64,000 nucleotides of DNA. Origin: Termitidicoccus mucosus. GTDB lineage: Bacteria > Verrucomicrobiota > Verrucomicrobiia > Opitutales > Opitutaceae. Shown one piece after another: positions 384 through 58,900 of the stretch; position 1 is the stretch's first letter, and each line of letters begins with the position of its first letter. A program made the translations under genes and the position numbers. The notes below the pieces were generated by a model, which ran no database searches, was not told where the DNA came from, and was given only the letters and a program-made list of their open reading frames with translations. The DNA lies in contig NZ_CP109796.1 in assembly GCF_038725785.1 (NCBI RefSeq), positions 2,046,001-2,110,000 on the forward strand, read 5' to 3'.

Positions 384-1151
384 TCAGTTTTTTCGTCCCC
401 GCCTAGCCTTGCCTGCTTCCGGCGATGATGCACTCCCGCCAGCCGTCACGCCTTCCATCGGCTTCGCCGCCCGCCCGTCCCGCACCCGCGTCACACGCTT
501 GGGGCTGCGTTGCTTTTCCGCCGCACCGCCGTTGAGCGCGCTGCATATCCCGCAGGTGTGCCCGTCGCAGCCTCGCGCCGTGCAATGCTCGCGGCCGTAA
601 TAAATAATCCGCAGGTGCAGCGCGTTCCAGTGCTCGCGCGGAAACACCGCCTTCAAGTCCCGCTCCGTCTGCACCACGTTGCGCCCGTCGCTCAGCCGCC
701 AGCGCGCCGCCAGCCGGTGGATGTGCGTATCCACCGGAAAGGCCGGCTCACCCCAGGCTTGCGACATCACGACCGACGCCGTCTTGTGCCCGACGCCGGG
801 CAACGCCTCCAGCTCCTCAAACGTCCGCGGCACCTGCCCGCCGTGGCGCTCCACGATCAGCCGCGACAACTCCGAAATCGCCCGCGCCTTCTGCGGCGAC
901 AAGCCGCACGGGCGGATGATGCCCTGGATTTTCGCCACCGGCGCGGCGGCCATCGCGGCGGGGTTGCCGGCCAGCGCAAACAATTCCGGCGTCACTTCGT
1001 TCACGCGCTTGTCCGTGCATTGCGCCGACAGCACCACCGCCACCAGCAACGTGTAGGCGTCCCTGTGGTCGAGCGGAATCGGAGGATTCGGATAAAGCTC
1101 GGCAAGCCTCTGGTCAACAAACGCCGCGCGCGCGGCCTTGGTCTTGAACAT
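384..1151 (-). CDS. nth: Endonuclease III (DNA glycosylase/AP lyase)
   Basis: The product is a 255-residue base-excision repair enzyme that removes oxidised pyrimidines and nicks abasic sites. The helix-hairpin-helix [12 protein letters not shown] carries the catalytic lysine, and the catalytic aspartate follows in [16 protein letters not shown] is the usual N-terminal family motif. A C-terminal cluster of four cysteines (CTARGC, HTC, GIC) should hold the 4Fe-4S cluster, but its spacing is C-x4-C-x4-C-x2-C rather than the Escherichia coli C-x6-C-x2-C-x5-C. A basic low-complexity tail of about 40 residues follows. The ATG at 1149-1151 ([11 protein letters not shown]) gives the normal family N-terminus; longer upstream starts would add arginine-rich sequence lying antisense to gcvP. 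It is divergent from gcvP. Confidence 0.92.
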
Positions 1152-1290
1152 GACGCCAGACACAAACACGCCGCCCCGGAGCCGCGAGCGCAAAAAATGC
1201 GCGCCGCCGTCGTTCAAGGCGGACACGGCGGCTTTTGGCCCCTTTCCCATTGCGCCGGTCAAACCCAGCCGCCTACGCTTGCGCGCAATC

Positions 1291-4434
<3,144 letters not shown>

Positions 4435-10028: not shown

Positions 10029-10868
10029 ATGCCGCTGCTGTTCCTCGTTTCGCTCGTCTGGGCCTTTTCGTTCGGACTCATCAAAGGCCGGCTCGCCGGT
10101 CTTGACCCGACCGCGCTCGGCGTCGTGCGCATCGCGTTGTCCGCGGTGGTTTTTCTCCCGGTGCTGCGGCTGCGCAACATCCCCGGTTTTGCGATTCCCC
10201 GGTTGATGGCCATCGGCGCGGTCGAGTTTGGGATCATGTATCTCGCCTACATGGCGGCGTTCCGCCATCTCGCGGCGCACGAGGTCGCGCTCTTCACGAT
10301 TTTCACCCCGCTTTGGCTCGCGCTGTTCGAGGCCGCCGCCGCGCGGCGGTTTGCGCCCCGCCTCGCCGCGGCCGTGCTGCTCGCCGTCGCGGGCGCCGCG
10401 GTGGTGTGCTGGCAGGGATTTTCCACGCCAGGGCTGCTGGCCGGATTCGTGCTCGTGCAGGTGTCGAATGTCGCCTTTGCCGCCGGGCAATTCTGGTATC
10501 GCCGCATCCGCGTCGCGCTGCCGCGCGCGGCGGACACCGATGTGTTCGGCCTGCTCTACCTCGGCGCGCTCGCGGTCACCGCCGCGGCCTCGATGTTCAC
10601 GACCGACTGGGGCGCGTTTCGCCCGACGCCCGCGCAATGGCTCACGCTGGTTTACCTGGGCACCGTCGCATCGGGCCTCTGTTTTTTCTGGTGGAACCTC
10701 GGCGCGACGCGCGTGAAGCTCGGCACACTGGCCGTTTTCAACAACGCCAAGATTCCGCTCGGCGTCGCCGTGTCGCTCCTGTTTTTCGGCGAGTCCGCCC
10801 ACCTGCCGCGCCTCCTCATCGGCGGCGCGCTGTTGCTGCTGGCCATCATGGTCGCGGAAAGAAAATGA
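10029..10868 (+). CDS. EamA/DMT-superfamily transporter
   Basis: The product is a 279-residue membrane protein with about ten hydrophobic helices in two EamA repeats, as in drug/metabolite transporter family exporters of amino acids and other metabolites. The first helix begins directly at the N-terminus (LLFLVSLVWAFSFGLIKG), and the second half has the conserved VYLGTVASGLCFFWWNLG and the re-entrant FNNAKIPLGVAVSLLFFGE segment. The protein ends with VAERK, leaving a short basic cytoplasmic tail. A repeat element starts at its stop codon and separates it from convergent hisS. The substrate is unknown. Confidence 0.87.
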   Translation: MPLLFLVSLVWAFSFGLIKGRLAGLDPTALGVVRIALSAVVFLPVLRLRNIPGFAIPRLMAIGAVEFGIMYLAYMAAFRHLAAHEVALFTIFTPLWLALFEAAAARRFAPRLAAAVLLAVAGAAVVCWQGFSTPGLLAGFVLVQVSNVAFAAGQFWYRRIRVALPRAADTDVFGLLYLGALAVTAAASMFTTDWGAFRPTPAQWLTLVYLGTVASGLCFFWWNLGATRVKLGTLAVFNNAKIPLGVAVSLLFFGESAHLPRLLIGGALLLLAIMVAERK

Positions 10869-10973
10869 GGGGGAATTTTGGATTTTCGATTGGACGCTGC
10901 CGCGCCGGATTCGCGAATGGAGCGACAGCTCCCTCAATCGTAAATCGTAATTCGTAAATCGTAATTTTCCCTC
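10868..10973. repeat. Heptamer-arm repeat element between eamA-like gene and hisS
   Basis: The right arm (10933-10973) holds four copies of the heptamer TCGTAAW; the left arm (10868-10893) is a degenerate inverse that includes GATTTTCGATT, as in the gcvP element. The spacer has GC-rich dyads (GCTGCCGCGCC; GGAGCGACAGCTCC). The element fills the gap between two convergent stop codons exactly. Confidence 0.75.
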
Positions 10974-12288
10974 ACTCGCCCGAGAAAAAATTCTTCACGT
11001 GCGCGAGCACCTCGGCGCGCGGCACTTCCTGCTCGGTGCGCGTGGTGAGGTCGCGGATTTTCACGACTCCCTTGGCCAATTCGTCGCCGCCGTAGATCAA
11101 GGCCAGCTTCGCGCCGGACTCGGCGGCGGCCTTGAATTGTTTTCCGAAGGCCGTGTCCTTCATCGGGTATTCGACCCGGAAACCCGCCGCGCGCAACGCA
11201 TGGATATCCCCAAACGCCGCCAGCCGCTCCCGCGGGCCGCCGATCACCGCGCAGATGTCCGGCGCCTGCACAAACGCGGGCATCAGGCCGCGCTGCTCGA
11301 GCAGCAGCGCGAATGTCATGTCGCCGATGGCGAAGCCGACCGCCGGCATGTCGGCGTAGCCGAGCTTGCCCACGAGATTGTTGTAGCGACCGCCGCCGGC
11401 GAGGGCGCGCAGTTCGCCCTTGCGGTCAAACGCCTCGAACACAAAGCCGGTGTAATAGGCCAGCCCGCGCACGACGCCGAGGTCAACGCTCACGTAGTCG
11501 CCCAGCCCCATCGCTTCGAGATTACCCAGCAGCGCGCGCCAGTCGGCAAGGCGGGCGGCGAGGTTCTCGTTGTCCAGACCGGCAAGCGCGCCCTCGAGCG
11601 CGGCCAGGGTTTTGATTTGGAGAAAGGCCAGGACCTTCTCCTTGATTGAGGGATCGAGCGGCGCGCCGAATTGTTCGCCGTAGGGCTTGAATGCGTCGTC
11701 GCCGATTTTTTCATACTTGTCGACGGCGGTGAGGATGGCGCGCGCGCGCGGCTCGTCGAGGCCGAGGGCCTCCAGGTAGTAGAACCAGAGGTTGCGGTCG
11801 CTCAGGCGGATGAAAAAATCCTCGGCGGTGAGGCCGAACGCACAAAGGCATTGCGCGAGCAGCGCGATGAGTTCGGTTTCCGCCTCGATGCCGGGCTCGC
11901 CGAAGATGTCGGCATTGAACTGGAAAAAACAGCGCCCGCGCCCCTTTTGCATGCGCTCATAGCGATAGAACTCGCCGATGCTGAACCACTTGATCGGACG
12001 CTTGAGCGCCGCGGCCTTGTCGCCGACGAGGCGGCAGACGGTGGGCGTCATCTCGGGCCGCAGCGCGACCTCGCGCCCGCCCTTGTCGGTAAAACTGAAA
12101 AGCTGCGCCTCGATCTCGTCGCCGGATTTGGCCTTGTAGAGCGCGAGCGGCTCGAGCACGGGCGCGTCGTATTCGGAAAACCCAAACACATGCGCGGTCT
12201 GCCGCCAGAGGCGAAAAATGTGGTTCCGGCGCGCAAGGGCGTCGGGATAAAACTCACGGAAGCCGGGCAGTGTCTGGAACGTGGACAT
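10972..12288 (-). CDS. hisS: Histidyl-tRNA synthetase
   Basis: The product is a 438-residue class II aminoacyl-tRNA synthetase charging tRNA-His. Motif 2 is visible as FYRYERMQKGRGRCFFQFN, the histidine-specific LAYYTGFVFEAF motif follows in the catalytic domain, and motif 3 is GFAIGDMTFALLLEQR. The anticodon-binding domain runs from about residue 335 to the end (DICAVIGG onwards). Length and order match the family. The start ATG at 12286-12288 gives MSTFQTLPGFREFYPD, the usual motif 1 region. It converges with the EamA transporter gene. Confidence 0.96.
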   Translation of the reverse strand: MSTFQTLPGFREFYPDALARRNHIFRLWRQTAHVFGFSEYDAPVLEPLALYKAKSGDEIEAQLFSFTDKGGREVALRPEMTPTVCRLVGDKAAALKRPIKWFSIGEFYRYERMQKGRGRCFFQFNADIFGEPGIEAETELIALLAQCLCAFGLTAEDFFIRLSDRNLWFYYLEALGLDEPRARAILTAVDKYEKIGDDAFKPYGEQFGAPLDPSIKEKVLAFLQIKTLAALEGALAGLDNENLAARLADWRALLGNLEAMGLGDYVSVDLGVVRGLAYYTGFVFEAFDRKGELRALAGGGRYNNLVGKLGYADMPAVGFAIGDMTFALLLEQRGLMPAFVQAPDICAVIGGPRERLAAFGDIHALRAAGFRVEYPMKDTAFGKQFKAAAESGAKLALIYGGDELAKGVVKIRDLTTRTEQEVPRAEVLAHVKNFFSGE

Positions 12289-19187: not shown

Positions 19188-19310
19188 AAATCTCAAATTC
19201 CGAAATCCCAAATCCCAAAAAAATTCCAATAATCAAAAGGCCAAAATCCCAAAGAGGGCGCTCCCGCGCCGGTGATTCTTTGGAATTTGGGATTTCGGAA
19301 TTTGGGATTT
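19188..19310. repeat. Word-like repeat element between ilvN and the convergent second ilvB
   Basis: The arms at 19188-19213 and 19285-19310 are inverted copies over 26 bp with one mismatch, built of alternating AAATCCC and AAATTCCG units of 7-8 bases. The spacer contains another CAAAATCCCAAAG segment and a GC-rich patch. The element lies between two convergent genes. Confidence 0.8.
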
Positions 19311-19326
19311 CCCCGCCGCGCGGGGC

Positions 19327-21135
19327 TTACGACAGGATCATTTCCTTCACTGATTTCCCGGCGGGAATCATCGGGAGCACGTGCTCGCTGTGCGGGACGA
19401 CCACGTCGAGAAGATACGGGCCATCGTGGTCAAGCATCTCCTGAATGGCTTCGCGCAACTCGGCCTTCTTGATCACGCGGCGGCCTTTCACGCCAAAACC
19501 CGCGGCGATTTGCGCGAAGTCAGGATAGAGACCGGGGATGTTGTGAGGTCCCCCGATGTTGTCGGCGTCGCCCAGGATGGTCTGGCCGCGCACGCTTTGA
19601 TAAAAACGATCCTCCCACTGCGTCACCATGCCGAGGTGCTGGTTGTTCAGGATCATGGCCTTCGCGGCAATGTTTTCTATCTTCGCCATGGCGAGCTCCT
19701 GAATGTTCATCATGAACGAGCCGTCGCCGTCGATGTCGATGACCTGGCGGTCGGGACAGGCGACTTTCGCGCCGAGCGCGGCGGGATAACCAAAGCCCAT
19801 CGCGCCAAGGCCGAGCGAACTGATGAGGCGGCGCGGCTCGTCAAAGGTGTAGAATTGCGCGGCCCACATCTGGTGCTGGCCGACGCCGGTTGCGATGATG
19901 GCCTCGCCCTTGGTGAGTTCGTAGAGCGCGTGGATGGCCTCCTGCGGAAGGATGTGCTGGCTTTCGCCGTAACTGAAGGGGTGCTGCTTTTTCCACTCGG
20001 CGATGCGCGGGAGCCAGTCGCCGGTGTCTGGGGCGGTGAACTTTTTCGCGACGATGAGCTTGTTCAGGCGCGCGAGGGCGTCCTTGAGGTCGGCGCAGAC
20101 GGGATAATGGACGCGTTTGTTTTTGTTGTGCTCGGCGGCGTCGATGTCGAGGTGGACGATTTGCGCGTGCGGCGCGAAGCGGTTGGTGTCGCCGGTGATG
20201 CGGTCGTCGAAACGCGCGCCGAAGGCGAGAAGCAGGTCGGATTCATCGACGGCCCAGTTGCCGGCGGCGGAGCCGTGCATGCCGAACCAGCGCATGGAGA
20301 GCGGATGATTTTCGGGGAACGCGCCCACGCCCATGAGCGTGGTGGCGACGGGAATGCCGGTCTTTTCGGCAAAGGCGCGGAGTTCCTTGTGCGCCTCGGC
20401 GGAGATGACGCCGCCGCCGACGTAGAGCACGGGTTTGCGCGCGGCGGAGACGAGCGAGAGGATGTGCTGGAGCTGCCCGTCGGTGGCGGTCTGCCGGAGG
20501 CTGATGAGCGGGTTGCGGAACGACGTGGCGGCGGGAAACACCGGCGTGACGGCGGCCTGCTGCACGTCCTTCGGGATGTCGATGACGACCGGGCCGGGGC
20601 GTCCGCTACGCGCGAGGTGAAACGCCTCTTTGAAGACGCGCGGCAGGTCGGCGGCGTCGAGCACGAGGTAGGAGTGCTTCACGATGGGCAGCGTCATGCC
20701 GAAGAAATCGGTCTCCTGAAACGCGCTCTTGCCGATGTATTTCGAATACACCTGCCCGGTGATGGCGACGAGCGGGATGGAATCCATGAACGCGTCGGCG
20801 ATGGCGGAGACCAGGTTGGTCGCGCCGGGGCCGCTGGTGGCCATGCACACGCCGACCTTGCCGGAGGCGCGCGCGTAGCCCTCGGCGGCGAACGCGCCGC
20901 CCTGCTCATGGCGCGGGAGGACGACGCGGATGTCTTTCGTGCGGGCGAGCGCCTGGTGCAGTTCGAGCGAGGCGCCGCCGGGATAGGCGAAAATGACATC
21001 GACGTTCTCCCTGACAAGGCACTCCACGACACAATCGGCGCCGTTCATCTGGCGGGCGGGACGGGTGGCGGGCTTGGCGGATTTCGCGGCGGCTTTCGCT
21101 TCGGCGGCGGCGGAACGTCTGGCGGTCTTTTTCAT
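19327..21135 (-). CDS. ilvB: Acetolactate synthase large subunit (second copy)
   Basis: The product is a 602-residue ThDP enzyme of the same family as the copy at 16969, but clearly a different lineage. The catalytic glutamate is in [26 protein letters not shown] and [16 protein letters not shown] follow; the ThDP motif runs from [15 protein letters not shown] to [13 protein letters not shown] Lys/Ala-rich N-terminal tail of about 30 residues precedes the conserved MNGADCVVE segment. The start ATG at 21133-21135 avoids a longer, arginine-rich extension. It follows leuD on the same strand after a repeat-filled gap of about 160 bp. No small-subunit gene is next to it, so it may share IlvN or use one elsewhere. 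Confidence 0.93.
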
Positions 21136-21218
21136 GGGTGGAATTGCTCGCTGAAAAGGTTCAGACAATGCGTTTGCCCGCGGGCGAGGCAAGCGCGGAA
21201 AGGGCCGCTGCGCGGCCA

Positions 21219-21293
21219 GTTTAAGTTTGAAGTTTAAGTTTAGGGACAGGCAGCCGGCCTGTTTCCTTAAACTTAAACTTTTAACCTAAACTT
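21219..21293. repeat. Repeat element between leuD and the second ilvB
   Basis: The arms are made of AAGTTT units: the left arm (21219-21251) and right arm (21257-21293) are imperfect inverses, and the centre is a GC-rich dyad ACAGGC/GCCTGT. The element ends 4 bp from the leuD stop codon and may attenuate read-through into ilvB. Confidence 0.7.
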
Positions 21294-29638: not shown

Positions 29639-29709
29639 GGCGGAAAGGCTGCCGCCCGCCCGGGCCGGAGTCAGGCGGAAAGTTTCCGGCAAGAGCGCGC
29701 CGCCGGAAT

Positions 29710-29809
29710 CTTTCTCTTTATTCTTTATCTTTCTCTTTCTCCCCTTCCCTGCCGTCCCCAGAAAAGTCCGCCGGGACGGAAGGAGGAAAGATAAAGAATA
29801 AAGAGAAAG
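29710..29809. repeat. Perfect 24-bp inverted repeat element between divergent genes
   Basis: Arms 29710-29733 and 29786-29809 are exact inverses over 24 bp, built of CTTTCTCTTTATTCTTTAT-like 6-7-mers. The 52-bp spacer contains a second dyad (CCGTCCC/GGGACGG and CCTTCC/GGAAGG). It lies in the 308-bp gap between the start codons of the PEP/pyruvate-binding gene and the carboxypeptidase gene, so it may be part of their 5' leaders. Nothing else was recognised in the gap. Confidence 0.85.
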
Positions 29810-29946
29810 AGGAAAGAGGGTGTGCCGAAATATGACATCGCGTCTGCAACTGAAACGCCCCCGTCCCCGGGCAAAATCGCCGAAGATTGCGATTCCCCCA
29901 AACGGCTTCTTCCCTTTCGCTTCACCTTTTCCATTTTCCACGTCAC

Positions 29947-33600: not shown

Positions 33601-33669
33601 GGCGCGGCAGCGCCGGTAGGGCGAAGCCTCCGGCTGAGCCGCGGATCGGCGGGGACGCCTCGCCCTGCC
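33601..33669. repeat. REP-like multi-hairpin element
   Basis: The hairpin GGCGCGGCAGCGCC (33601-33614), identical to that in the gcvP insertion spacer, is followed by an outer stem GGTAGGGCGA/TCGCCCTGCC (33615-33624, 33660-33669, one mismatch) enclosing further GC-rich dyads such as GGCTGAGCC. Confidence 0.65.
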
Positions 33670-34213: not shown

Positions 34214-34803
34214 ATTTAATGGTTCGGTTTTTATGGCCACAAAGAGGCGCTCTACGAGGCGGAGCCGAGTGGTCTGACAAAGGCACAAGATTGAGTGATT
34301 TCTTGTGCTTCTTGTGCCTCTTTGCGGCTATTTTATTGGTTCGGATTTTATTTCACCACGGAGACACGGAGGACACGGAGTGCGGAGGGAGTTTTTTAAT
34401 CAAAATCTCTTTCCTTCCTTCGTGGTCTCCTTGGGTAAATTTTTCGTTTAGATCATTCAAATTAGCGAGGAACCGTTTTTATAAACCGGCATCCGGTTCG
34501 CTTCGGCTAAAAACCTCTGCCGCCGGAGTCGAAAAAATTCGTAATTGCTTGAAAATAAGCTTGCATACGAAATACGAAATTTGTAAAAAGCTTCCAGCCT
34601 TCCAGCCTTCCAAGCCCTAATAACGTTTTTCAGGGACGTATTGTGTCCCGATGAAACAGCCCGGACATCCCCATGCGCCCGCTGCCGCGCCAGTGACTGG
34701 GAGCGCCGGCGGCCTGACGCGAGGTCAGGCCCTACAAGACGCTTTGTGCCCTTTGTGCCTTTGTGGTGGGAAAAAACCGAACCATTAAATTTAACCACGG
34801 ATT
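34201..34803. repeat. Segment bounded by a perfect 32-bp inverted repeat
   Basis: The 32 bases at 34201-34232 are exactly inverted at 34772-34803 (right copy begins AAAAACCGAACCATTAAA). The 539-bp interior has no recognisable gene and is itself made of repeat pieces. The outline recalls a non-autonomous element, but no target-site duplication was identified. Confidence 0.75.
34695..34730. repeat. REP-like hairpin, second copy of the GACTGGGAGCGCCGGC family
   Basis: The 16-mer at 34695-34710 matches 31694-31709; it is followed by GGCCTGAC, loop, GGTCAGGCC, a different hairpin from the one at 31702. Confidence 0.55.
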
Positions 34804-34881
34804 TCACGGATGAACACGGATAAAACCAGCGATTTTCCAAGTCTTTCTCTTATCCGTGTATTCCGTGTAATCCGTGGTTAA
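34791..34881. repeat. Inverted word-like repeat upstream of the giant gene
   Basis: Arms at 34791-34823 and 34850-34881 are inverse copies made of CACGGATTTCACGGAT-type 9-10-mers. This pair and the one at 34145 share their outer TTAACCACGGATT sequence. Confidence 0.8.
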
Positions 34882-55900: not shown

Positions 55901-58900
55901 CACCGCGCGCGCGGGCGCGACAGCCATCGCGATCACCGGCAGCAACGCGCAGTTCGCCGGCCTCTGGGACATCGCCGCCGCCGCCAGCGCGACGATGACC
56001 GCCCAGCAAAACCTCGGCGCGAGCGGCGCCACCGGCGCGAAAGTGAACATCGCCAGCGGCGGCACCCTCGCGCTCGCCGGCATGGGCGGCGATTACGAGT
56101 TCAACCAAGCCTTGACCGGCGCGGGCAATTTGCTGGTCAACAACACCGGCACCTTCGGCCTCGGCAATGCGACCGGCGCCAATTTCGCCGGCAGCGTCAT
56201 CCTGCAAAACAACCGGTTCGCGCTCGGCGGCACCAACACGCTGGCGCTGGGCAACGCCACGCTGACCGTCAGCGACGGCAATCACACGGCGGTCGGCAGC
56301 GGCACGCAGAACATCGGCAACCTGAGTTTGCAAACCGGCACCATCCGTTTCACCTTGGATGCCAGCGGCACGGCGGCGGCGGGCATCGTCAACACCGCGA
56401 CGCTGACCTTCAGCGGCAGCACGCATCTCATCGTTGACACCGGCTCGTTCAACACCGCGCTGCCGTTGCTCCAACAGGACGAAGGCAAGACGCTGCGACT
56501 CATCAACAGCACCGCGCTGGCCGGCACGGCGGGGCAGGTGGGCAGCCAGTATTTGCGCGACGCAAACGGCAACCAACTGACCAGCAGCAGCACCAGGTCC
56601 ATCGTGCAAAGCAGCGCGACCACCGCGCTGGGCACCTACGACTTTGGCGCGAACGTCAGCGGCAGCGGCCTGTGGCTGGCATACGAACTGCAAACCCTGA
56701 ACCTGCTCGCCGGCCGGACGACGGAGCTGACCAACGACACCGCCTTCATCACCGGCGGCGCGGAACTGCACGCCGCAGTGAGCGGCAGCGGCCACCTGCA
56801 AATCAGCGCGAGCGCCGCCATCACCCTGAACGGCGCCAACACTTACACCGGCAGCACCGCCGTCAGCAGCGGCACGCTGATCCTGGGCGCGAACAACGCC
56901 CTCGGCCAAACGTCCATGCTGTCCACCACGTCCACCGCGTCCGCCGATTTGAACGGCAAAACCCAAACCGTCGGCGCGCTGGCGAACAGCGGCACGCTGG
57001 ACTTCCACAGCGGCACGCTGACCCTCAGCGGCACCGCGCAAAGCAGCACCGCCGGCGGCGTGCTGGCCGGCAGCGGCGCGCTGATTGTGCAAAGCAACAC
57101 GCTGACCGTCACCGGCACGAACGGCACGCTGCTCGTCAGCGCCAGCATCAGCGGCAGCGCGACCGTGGTGGTGACCGACGTGCTCGGCCTCGGCCGCGGC
57201 GCGATCACCGACAGCGGCGCGCTGGCCTTCGACGGCGCGACCGGCATCAACGCCAACACCATCAGCGGCGCGGGCCTCGTCAGCGCGACCAACGGGGCGA
57301 ACGTGGTTTTGGGCGGCAGCAACAGCGCCTTCACCGGCACGTGGGCGATTGCCAACAACAGCGCCTTCAAAGCCACCGGCAGCGCCAGCCTCGGTGACGG
57401 CAAAGTGAATGACAGCGGCACGCTGAAACTGGGAGGAATTACGAATTACGAATTACAAATTACGAATGTGATCAGCGGCGCGGGCGTGGTGGTGAAAGAA
57501 GACGCCAACACCGTCACGATCAGCCACGCCAACAACCACACCGGCGGCAGCGTCATCAACGCGGGCACGCTGAAGTTGACGAATCTGCAAGGCACCGGCA
57601 CGGGCAACGTGGTGAACAACGCCGGCCTCGACTTAAACGGCGCCGGCAGCTACGCGAACAACATCAGCGGCACGACCACGGCGGTCAACGCCATCACCGC
57701 CAGCGGGGTCGGCATCAGCGGCACCAACACCGCCTTCACCGGCACGTGGAACGTCACCGGCAGCGGCACGATGACCGCGCAAAATAATTTGGGCGCCAGC
57801 GGCACGGCGAAAGTGAACATCGCCAGCGGCGGCGACCTGTCGCTCGTCGGCATGGGCGGCGATTACGAGTTCAACCAAGCCTTGACCGGCGCGGGCAATT
57901 TGCTGGTCAACAACACCGGCACCTTCGGCCTCGGCGCGGCGACCGGCACGGCCTTCACCGGCACCGTGGCGTTGCAGAACAACCAGTTTGCCTTGAGCGG
58001 CGGCAACACGCTGGCGCTGGCCAACGCGACGCTGAAACCCGACGCGAACAATTACACGGCGGTCGGCAGCGGCACGCAAACGGTCGGCAACCTGACGCTG
58101 AGTGCCGGCACGCTGGGCTTCACCATCGCCAGCAGCGGCACGGCGGCGGAAGGCGTCATCAAGACCGGCACCGTCAGCGGCAACGGCACGGTGATTCAAG
58201 TGAACCTGGCCAACCTCGGCTCGAACAGCCTCCTGCCCTTGTTGCAACAGGACGAAGGCAAAAGCATCCTGCTGGTGGACGGCACGACGGGCGGCGGCAG
58301 CTTGAATTTCGTTGACCAGGCCGGCAGCGCGCTCGGCAGCGGCGTCAGCCAGAACATTGTGCAGAGCGGCAGCACCGTCGCCACCGGCACCTACAATTTC
58401 AGCGGCAGCTTCGCCACCGGCGACATCACGCTGGGCTACGTGCTGACCGCGCTGAACCTGAACAGCGGCTTCACGACGCTGCTCAACGGCGACGTGACCG
58501 CCCCCGCGCTCGGCAACGAGTTCCACGCGAGCATCAGCGGCGCGGGCAACCTGCAACTCGCCGCGACCAGCACCATCACGCTGAACCGCACGAACACCTA
58601 CACCGGCACGACCTTCATCACCGGCGGCGCCGTGGTGCTTGGCACCAACAGCGCCTTGGGCAGCACGTCCCTGCTGTCCCTTGCGTCCCTCGCGTCCCTT
58701 GACCTCAACGGCAAAACCCAAACCGTCGGCACCCTCAGCGGCAGCGCGGGCAGCACGCTGCTCTTCAACAGCGGCACGCTGGCCGTGAGCAACGGCGGCG
58801 CCAGCAGCGGCACGCTCAGCGGCGCGGGCGCGCTGAACGTCAGCGGCAACAATCTGGTCATTACCAACGCGAACACCGCGCTGACGGTGAGCACCAGCAT

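Follow-up and report, generated by a model that had tools for sequence, protein, structure and literature searches.

How does a bacterial genome come to hold palindromes of one architecture whose repeated word changes from copy to copy? The question is raised by a 64,000-nucleotide stretch of the Termitidicoccus mucosus genome (the window, G000:C1:2046001-2110000; the genome, G000, comprises 7.92 Mb in two contigs), in which a first-pass annotation had described heptamer arms around a short spacer at six sites. Reading of all six confirmed the inverted-repeat architecture, and five of them are clear inverted pairs. The focal copy (10868-10973) possesses the architecture as well, but its arms carry different words and it is the poorest of the six sites; no same-word partner was scored there, and its inverted score of 8 lies below threshold. 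On folding five of the sites (3585 left out) as single-stranded DNA, four gave z values of -6.5 to -9.8, while the focal site gave -2.5. The features of the window are listed below, with the evidence in brackets.

1138..4434, + strand: gcvP (glycine dehydrogenase) frame, hosting two in-frame elements (open frame; Pfam GDC-P 1.4e-181; NCBIfam TIGR00461 over cut-off)
2633-2764, + strand: element 1, a GATTTTC inverted pair (direct reading)
2633..2664, + strand: left heptamer arm of element 1, GATTTTC/GATTCTC (TRF; pairing)
2667..2680, + strand: inner hairpin of element 1, GGAGC-CGCC-GCTCC (sequence; stem table)
2692..2705, + strand: inner hairpin of element 1, GGCGC-GGCA-GCGCC (sequence)
2739..2764, + strand: right heptamer arm of element 1, inverted (TRF; pairing)
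3585-3795, + strand: element 2, a GCGGAAT inverted pair (direct reading)
3585..3616, + strand: left arm of element 2, AATGCGG (TRF; pairing)
3760..3795, + strand: right arm of element 2, CCGCATT (TRF; pairing)
10029-10868, + strand: EamA gene, convergent with hisS (Pfam EamA)
10874..10891, + strand: focal left arm AATTTTG-GATTTTC-GATT, GATTTTC-type (element gallery)
10892..10935, + strand: focal 44-nt spacer with two GC hairpins, GACGCTGCCGCGCC (4/5 pairs) and GGAGCGACAGCTCC (5/5 pairs)
10936..10966, + strand: focal right arm, other words AATCGTA/AATTCGT (TRF; pairing)
10972..12288, - strand: hisS, its stop adjoining the focal element (Pfam tRNA-synt_His)
19188..19311, + strand: AAATCCC element, 3' of the TPP-enzyme gene (TRF; pairing; fold)
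19327-21192, - strand: TPP-enzyme gene, putatively of the acetolactate-synthase type (by reading)
21218..21292, + strand: AAGTTTA element (6/7-nt mix), 5' of the TPP-enzyme gene (fold)
29709..29819, + strand: TCTTTC-type element of 6/7-nt units (TRF; fold)
57436..57467, + strand: lone GAATTAC array, lacking an inverted partner and lying within a very long open frame (TRF; pairing)

Elements similar to the TCTTTC type occur at L061, L068, L115 and L121. At the Rfam gathering thresholds the window gave two matches, both to tRNA, and a plasmid search with element 1 as the query gave no match.

The + strand frame across 57436 is open for 9725 codons, and the GAATTAC (57436) and CTGAAAA (62754) arrays apparently occupy an equivalent spot of its repeat unit; a similar long frame at L121 (8885) has GAATTAC at the corresponding place. 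Separately, positions 34793-34879 hold an imperfect inverted repeat (AACCACGGATTTCACGGATGAACACGGATAA ... TTATCCGTGTATTCCGTGTAATCCGTGGTT) of irregular 8-10-nt units, recognised by eye, which embodies the same idea as the heptamer elements at a different period.

Recurrence in the genome and inverted pairing

Recurrence was assessed in an 864-kb sample of G000, made up of the window and 40 evenly spaced 20-kb stretches picked blind to repeats; removal of four all-G/C arrays before counting left 52 period-7 arrays. At a score of 12, a same-word inverted partner within 260 bp was found for 23/52 arrays, as against a direct same-word partner for 1/52 and an inverted partner for 0/52 in the random-flank null. 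At the looser score of 10, the same 52 arrays gave 25 inverted and 6 direct partners, and the null again gave 0. The 29/52 arrays devoid of a same-word inverted partner at score 12 count against the dispersed-element reading set out below.

Short two-copy repeats are common by chance, and the elements might accordingly be taken for an artefact of coincidence or composition. The probability of this is nevertheless practically negligible, given the contrast of 23/52 with the null and the absence of inverted pairs from all shuffled samples. At the threshold of the shuffle test, the window itself has seven period-7 arrays and two inverted pairs, compared with one array and no inverted pair in one dinucleotide shuffle of it. 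Furthermore, GATTTTCGATTTTCGATT (at most one mismatch) occurs 61 times forward and 79 times reverse in G000, where the reversed pattern has 0 matches; in the family sample, it is present in 32/61 genomes and the reversed control in 1/61 (0 in 60/61). Coincidence as the source of the pairing is thus ruled out by the shuffles and the random-flank null. The architecture extends beyond the window, being seen genome-wide, family-wide and in other phyla; its absence elsewhere, named in the first-pass annotation as a refuting outcome, was not what the scans gave. The observation that the word differs each time holds within the window; elsewhere in the genome, however, words recur, and several are one substitution apart.

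Spacer hairpins and arms as separate modules

The outer stem of the elements comprises about 2-5 tandem heptamers per arm, and in this genus the spacer usually contains a pair of GC hairpins. In a gallery of 25 distinct GATTTTC/GATTTAC elements from G000, the common arm is AATTTTC-GATTTTC-GATTCTC-GATTTTC-GATTG, and the two usual hairpins have the stem GGAGC (A) or GGCGC (C), mostly with GGNA loops on one strand. The spacer is 43-44 nt long in 15/25 elements and 41 nt in one more. Both end hairpins are fully paired in 16/25, namely 12 A/C heterodimers (11/12 with a 43-44 nt spacer) and four C/C homodimers (4/4 with longer spacers of 65-124 nt); the stem table behind these counts reads both spacer ends only, and element 1 of the window, with its second hairpin deeper, was counted as not intact.

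The 864 kb contain 12 hairpins of the pattern GGMGCGG[CAT]AGCKCC whose stems match, spread over nine places, and a low-threshold period-7 array lies within 70 bp of 10/12 (7/9 places), as against 3.2% of the sample. L121, one of the seven array-linked places, has no clear arms, and the two places away from arrays are L120 and window position 33601. The dyad GGCGCGGCAGCGCC, reported earlier as common to 2692 and 33601, is indeed present at both, but at 33601 it is a lone hairpin with no heptamer array within 70 bp.

The hairpin doublet is kept in G004, which belongs to another genus, with a C stem of CGCGC..GCGCG in 10/14 elements as against GGCGC..GCGCC in 9/12 elements of G001, a genome of the same genus as G000, and in 15/25 of G000 itself, which is a compensatory change on both sides of the pair. 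With elements oriented so that A lies on the left, and with the cross-genome pattern limiting the gap to 20-50 nt, all five pairs are standard in 45/51 A hairpins and 40/51 C hairpins.

An identical hairpin pair is found with four arm words, i.e., GATTTTC, GATTTAC (L110), GAATTAC (L119) and GCGGAAT (L003). Once GAATGAC is placed between GAATTAC and GCGGAAT, each word differs from the next by a single substitution, except at the last step, and mixed arrays exist; arrays facing another word occur in the focal element and at L062 4404-4492 and L061 6326-6449. A simple transposon with conserved arms was rejected, as the word changes while the spacer persists. The proposal that architecture and not sequence is conserved is borne out across words, arms and spacer being independent modules, but does not extend to the spacer, which is often conserved in length and design. 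Such a common design looks like that of a dispersed element family and not like purely local generation. We consider the chances about even that the elements are dispersed REPIN-like palindromes in which slippage and copying between the arms maintain the likeness of the heptamer arms.

Location of the elements and host proteins

Gene placement, made by a GC3-based ORF heuristic and not from annotation, placed 17 of 29 rows inside ORFs, while five of the others are convergent, four codirectional and two divergent, and one lies at an edge; after removal of three double fetches, 14/26 distinct copies are in-ORF. The frame is open for at least 50 aa on both sides in 13/14 of these, L125 being too near the stretch end. 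A 7-nt repeat encodes the same peptide in every frame of its strand, and a word free of stops accordingly leaves all three frames open.

Profile searches identified GcvP (two elements), UvrA, a PurL-type protein, PrfC, ValS and Mpl as hosts over the curated cut-off. Matches below that cut-off are to Mfd, whose truncated locus holds two elements, to a Snf2-type helicase with another two, and to a sortase-target-like protein. RsmA/KsgA (over the cut-off) and two more UvrA places hold one-sided or mixed-word arrays, and the L062 protein matched no family in NCBIfam. The in-frame peptide of element 1 ends ...NRESKIENP within a GcvP loop. For some other copies (two at L013, and those at L110 and L119), a predicted stop or start lies 1-11 bp away on each side. 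Tolerated positions thus comprise the ends of genes and, for in-frame insertions, variable loops of proteins.

The gene-end copies and the strong folds would also suit hairpins that existed beforehand (terminators, attenuators) and were selected for a role in RNA, for which a heptamer stem is convenient and dispersal incidental. A terminator inside an ORF would be harmful, however, and more than half of the distinct copies lie inside predicted ORFs, nearly all with the frame open on both sides, which leaves this explanation very unlikely.

The same sites in other species

Presence and absence of the elements differ between species. At GcvP site 1 (19 loci aligned), G000 has the GATTTTC pair, G001 AAATCCC arrays, G004 a CCGCAAT array and G002 none; at site 2, G000 has the GCGGAAT pair, G001 no array but a heptamer-like stretch, CAAATGCGGA, at the junction, and G002 none. 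At the UvrA site (8 loci), G001 carries the same word in the same place, G002 a loop devoid of an array, G007 an intermediate loop, and G003, G005, G006 and G008 a short loop. Some copies are inherited and not new, as at this site, which G000 and G001 have in common; this counts against the dispersed-element reading. At the PrfC site, G001 has a long loop of related sequence with no clear array, the loop is short in G003, G004, G006 and G007 and intermediate in G005 and G008, and no G002 orthologue was found among the matches listed.

Between genes, the 19188 AAATCCC site is degenerate in G002 and has an array of opposite orientation in G001 (by eye). On the 5' side of the TPP-enzyme gene, where G000 has AAGTTTA, no heptamer array was seen in G001 or G002. 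In G001 (L155), a different palindrome, CCTTAGACATGTTG...CAACATGTCTATAGG, takes the place of the AAGTTTA element. The gap 5' of this gene may be a hairpin hot spot. The sequence after hisS is alike in G001 and G002 (in G002 an ORF, then EamA) and in both unlike G000; the focal element is therefore situated at a gene-content difference, which may be a gain or a loss in G000. The relatives compared belong to other species or genera, and among them neither a transposition event nor a strain-level occupied/empty pair was seen. In the comparison with MITEs, the flanks were accordingly read for palindromy, and they gave no clean empty site at strain level.

Distribution across genomes, phyla and phages

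A strict pattern for inverted GATTTTC, run once over a collection of 84,980 species genomes, returned 12 stretches, all from MAGs (Opitutaceae, Nitrospira, Acidobacteria, Bacteroidales, Planctomycetaceae, Phycisphaeraceae and one unnamed bacterium). Inverted heptamer pairs are thus present in four or more further phyla, as well as in a phage contig, and the genomes matched by the GATTTTC scan also carry other inverted words. One GATTTTC element of G001 (C494) has the same sequence as an element of an Opitutaceae MAG (L098). G005 and G073 have GATTTTC arms around other spacers, and the spacers examined outside G000, G001 and G004 are devoid of the GC hairpin pair; one element family therefore cannot explain all phyla.

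The sampling bears on the pairing counts. Loci L001-L030 and L205-L224 were collected via GATTTTC matches and L098-L109 via the inverted GATTTTC pattern, the contigs of G040, G041 and G043 were taken for their GAATTAC-like matches (all biased samples), G039 is known solely from pattern-selected loci, and the single inverted pair of G042 comes from such a locus; G005, G006, G007, G022, G042 (C1-C4), G038 (C1-C2) and a Trichormus plasmid were picked blind to repeats. In the partly biased samples, inverted partners were found for 31/46 arrays in G040, 19/26 in G043, 13/14 in G038, 6/6 in G039, 2/13 in G041 and 2/4 in G042; in the less biased ones, for 3/6 in G007, 2/4 in G006, 3/13 in G005 (with 4 direct), 0/5 in G022 and 3/9 in the plasmid. 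The inverted bias is thus absent in some samples, namely G022, G005 and G041. Beyond GATTTTC, the word overlap between phyla is suggestive only: the 43 words of the Opitutaceae family and the 50 others have six in common, of which one is the selection word and some are G/C-rich.

Viral scans yielded no contig with inverted GATTTTC, one with inverted GCGGAAT and four with inverted GAATTAC, compared with none for the reversed-word control and two for direct GAATTAC, small numbers in which the direct/inverted contrast is weak. L202 (IMGVR_UViG_3300020045_012626), a 9.9-kb phage contig that appears Mu-like on reading of its ORFs, contains 12 period-7 GAATTAC arrays, some inside frames. One GAATTAC pair of the phage contig L202/L225 is situated in frame within a protein which, by the same reading, is putatively gp16-like. 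The pair is absent from relatives at 67% and 63% identity (L226 and L227), and the loci of six relatives scanned, among 80 matches listed, had no period-7 array.

Arm likeness, flank palindromy and possible local generation

Among elements in which each arm reaches 18 nt or more (n=20), arm mismatch was 0.057 within elements and 0.078 between shuffled elements (P 0.003); the two arms co-vary, a likeness that descent from symmetrical ancestors would also give. The inner unit order is identical on both sides in L211, L215, L218 and L222, but not in, for example, L012 and L003. The palindrome extends at least 6 bp into the host flank in 7/94 rows (null mean 2.4, P 0.0055; three double fetches among the rows), reaching 11 bp at L211; G000 alone contributes 4/39 rows (P 0.0125), G043 0/10 and the phage contigs 0/9. 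Some cases of such palindromy fit cross-hairpin copying or, alternatively, insertion into a hairpin already present. At L211 (1798-1935), both flanks read GCG CGG TGA toward the element, and the palindrome may extend into the ends of two putative convergent genes.

Arm co-variation and flank palindromy are among the observations expected of local generation, in which slippage makes the arrays and one arm is copied in inverted orientation when the template switches at a fork or break, with no mobile unit involved. The long linkers of all four homodimers, the stretch kept by G001 at the empty GcvP site 2 and the location of the focal element, where gene content differs from G001/G002, can be added in its favour. 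We nevertheless judge local generation rather unlikely: the 43-44 nt two-hairpin spacer at unrelated loci cannot derive from local sequence, 87/94 rows lack flank palindromy of at least 6 bp (among them all those of G043 and the phage contigs), and the same word in distant phyla is not predicted by local slippage. Template switching, put forward in the first-pass annotation as a common generating mechanism, is retained as a minor contributor for the arm likeness and the seven palindromic flanks, but not as the main process given the shared spacer.

Proposed dispersal and the search for a mobilising enzyme

With the anatomy described above, one strand of an element can form either a single long hairpin or a clover of three stems. 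Under the dispersed REPIN-like reading, the foldback strand would be inserted as a unit, most plausibly by an ssDNA-acting activity, as proposed for REPINs. We infer dispersal because many copies with one spacer design occupy unrelated sites and relatives have element-free sites. The change of word, in part observed, would arise as arrays mutate and 7-nt slippage then homogenises them; copying across the hairpin would keep the two arms alike, so that the word drifts while the architecture stays. The period of 7 is not accounted for by this reading.

No mobilising gene could be tied to the elements in G000. Within about 1.5 kb of its seven Y1-transposase (Y1_Tnp) matches there are neither period-7 arrays nor any of the ten words looked for, and one GC hairpin near them (at L096) is unlike those of the elements; proximity to a resident Y1 transposase was accordingly rejected (0/7 near elements). 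Across 61 family genomes, Y1 and array counts are weakly correlated (rho 0.29, P 0.02, not size-corrected), the median Y1 count being 5 in genomes with arrays and 3 in those without (P 0.06). G073 has 54 array matches and one Y1 match, and the draft G051 has four array matches and no Y1 match.

That weak positive correlation, together with an inverted hairpin doublet that is dispersed, often of two types and capable of a foldback or clover, as in the REP/REPIN descriptions available (PMC3116915, PMC3733652), would accord with true REPINs moved by a resident RAYT/Y1 transposase, the heptamers representing the REP tail. In contrast to REP/REPIN sequences, however, the hairpin foot has no GTAG/CGTC tag and abuts the arm end GATTG / CAATC (by eye), no adjoining RAYT/Y1 gene was found, the outer arms are heptamer arrays, and many copies are intragenic. 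Among four REPIN features compared, the hairpin doublet is present and three (the tag, a repeat-flanked RAYT gene and extragenic location) do not apply; that the elements are true REPINs of this kind is distinctly unlikely.

Relation to known systems and significance

The nearest known systems are the Xanthomonas heptamer pairs, REPINs and Rickettsia palindromic elements (RPEs). Dispersed heptamers are described for Xanthomonas (GGGAATC) and Nostoc (GGGGA(C/T)T), with close inverted GGGAATC pairs numbering 70 cases in Xcc and 75 in Xac, often near gene ends (Rehm et al., 2015, PMC4692102, in the portion available). Inverted heptamer pairs as such are thus already in print, and the present elements resemble them in having tandem heptamers in close inverted pairs, often near gene ends. 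The same portion reads the G-rich word as a G-quadruplex and reports under-representation in coding regions, whereas none of GATTTTC, GAATTAC, GCGGAAT and AAGTGAC contains a GGG run, AAATCCC contains one on a single strand, and most words are devoid of GGG; the spacer design, the word series and the in-frame enzyme insertions have no counterpart in that description. RPEs, palindromes of about 150 bp, similarly occur in frame in unrelated protein genes according to the portion available of a review (PMC10969869), which does not mention heptamer arms; the likeness is one of description and not of sequence comparison. The elements work like a REPIN or an RPE, yet lack three of the four features compared for REPINs.

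TAACTGA repeats of Beggiatoaceae, cyanobacteria and Bacteroidetes (PMC4679880, as far as available) are likewise genome-wide heptamers across distant lineages, for which horizontal spread is suspected; unlike the present elements, they use one word, with 169 direct sets and one inverted in the main genome. The accessible portions of a prokaryote-wide account of tandem heptamers (PMC6344855) and of a report on triplex repeats (PMC4666352) do not describe inverted pairing and do not mention heptamers, respectively. No literature was found on such elements in Opitutaceae or on heptamer-armed REPIN-like elements, the search covering few subscription papers.

A wider proposal, which is possible though doubtful, is that the bacterial heptamer excess largely represents the arms of one cross-phylum palindromic class, in which period 7 and inversion are conserved while the word drifts, spread and maintained by an activity handling 7-nt-periodic foldback DNA, with some copies repeatedly fixed as in-frame loops of core enzymes. 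Similar palindromes in distant bacteria provide a handle on why seven-letter repeats are common in bacterial genomes. Furthermore, the inverted pairing, modular spacer, near-identical words and in-frame hosts make it testable what moves the elements, what fixes the period of 7 and how some 30-70 additional residues are accommodated in core enzymes.
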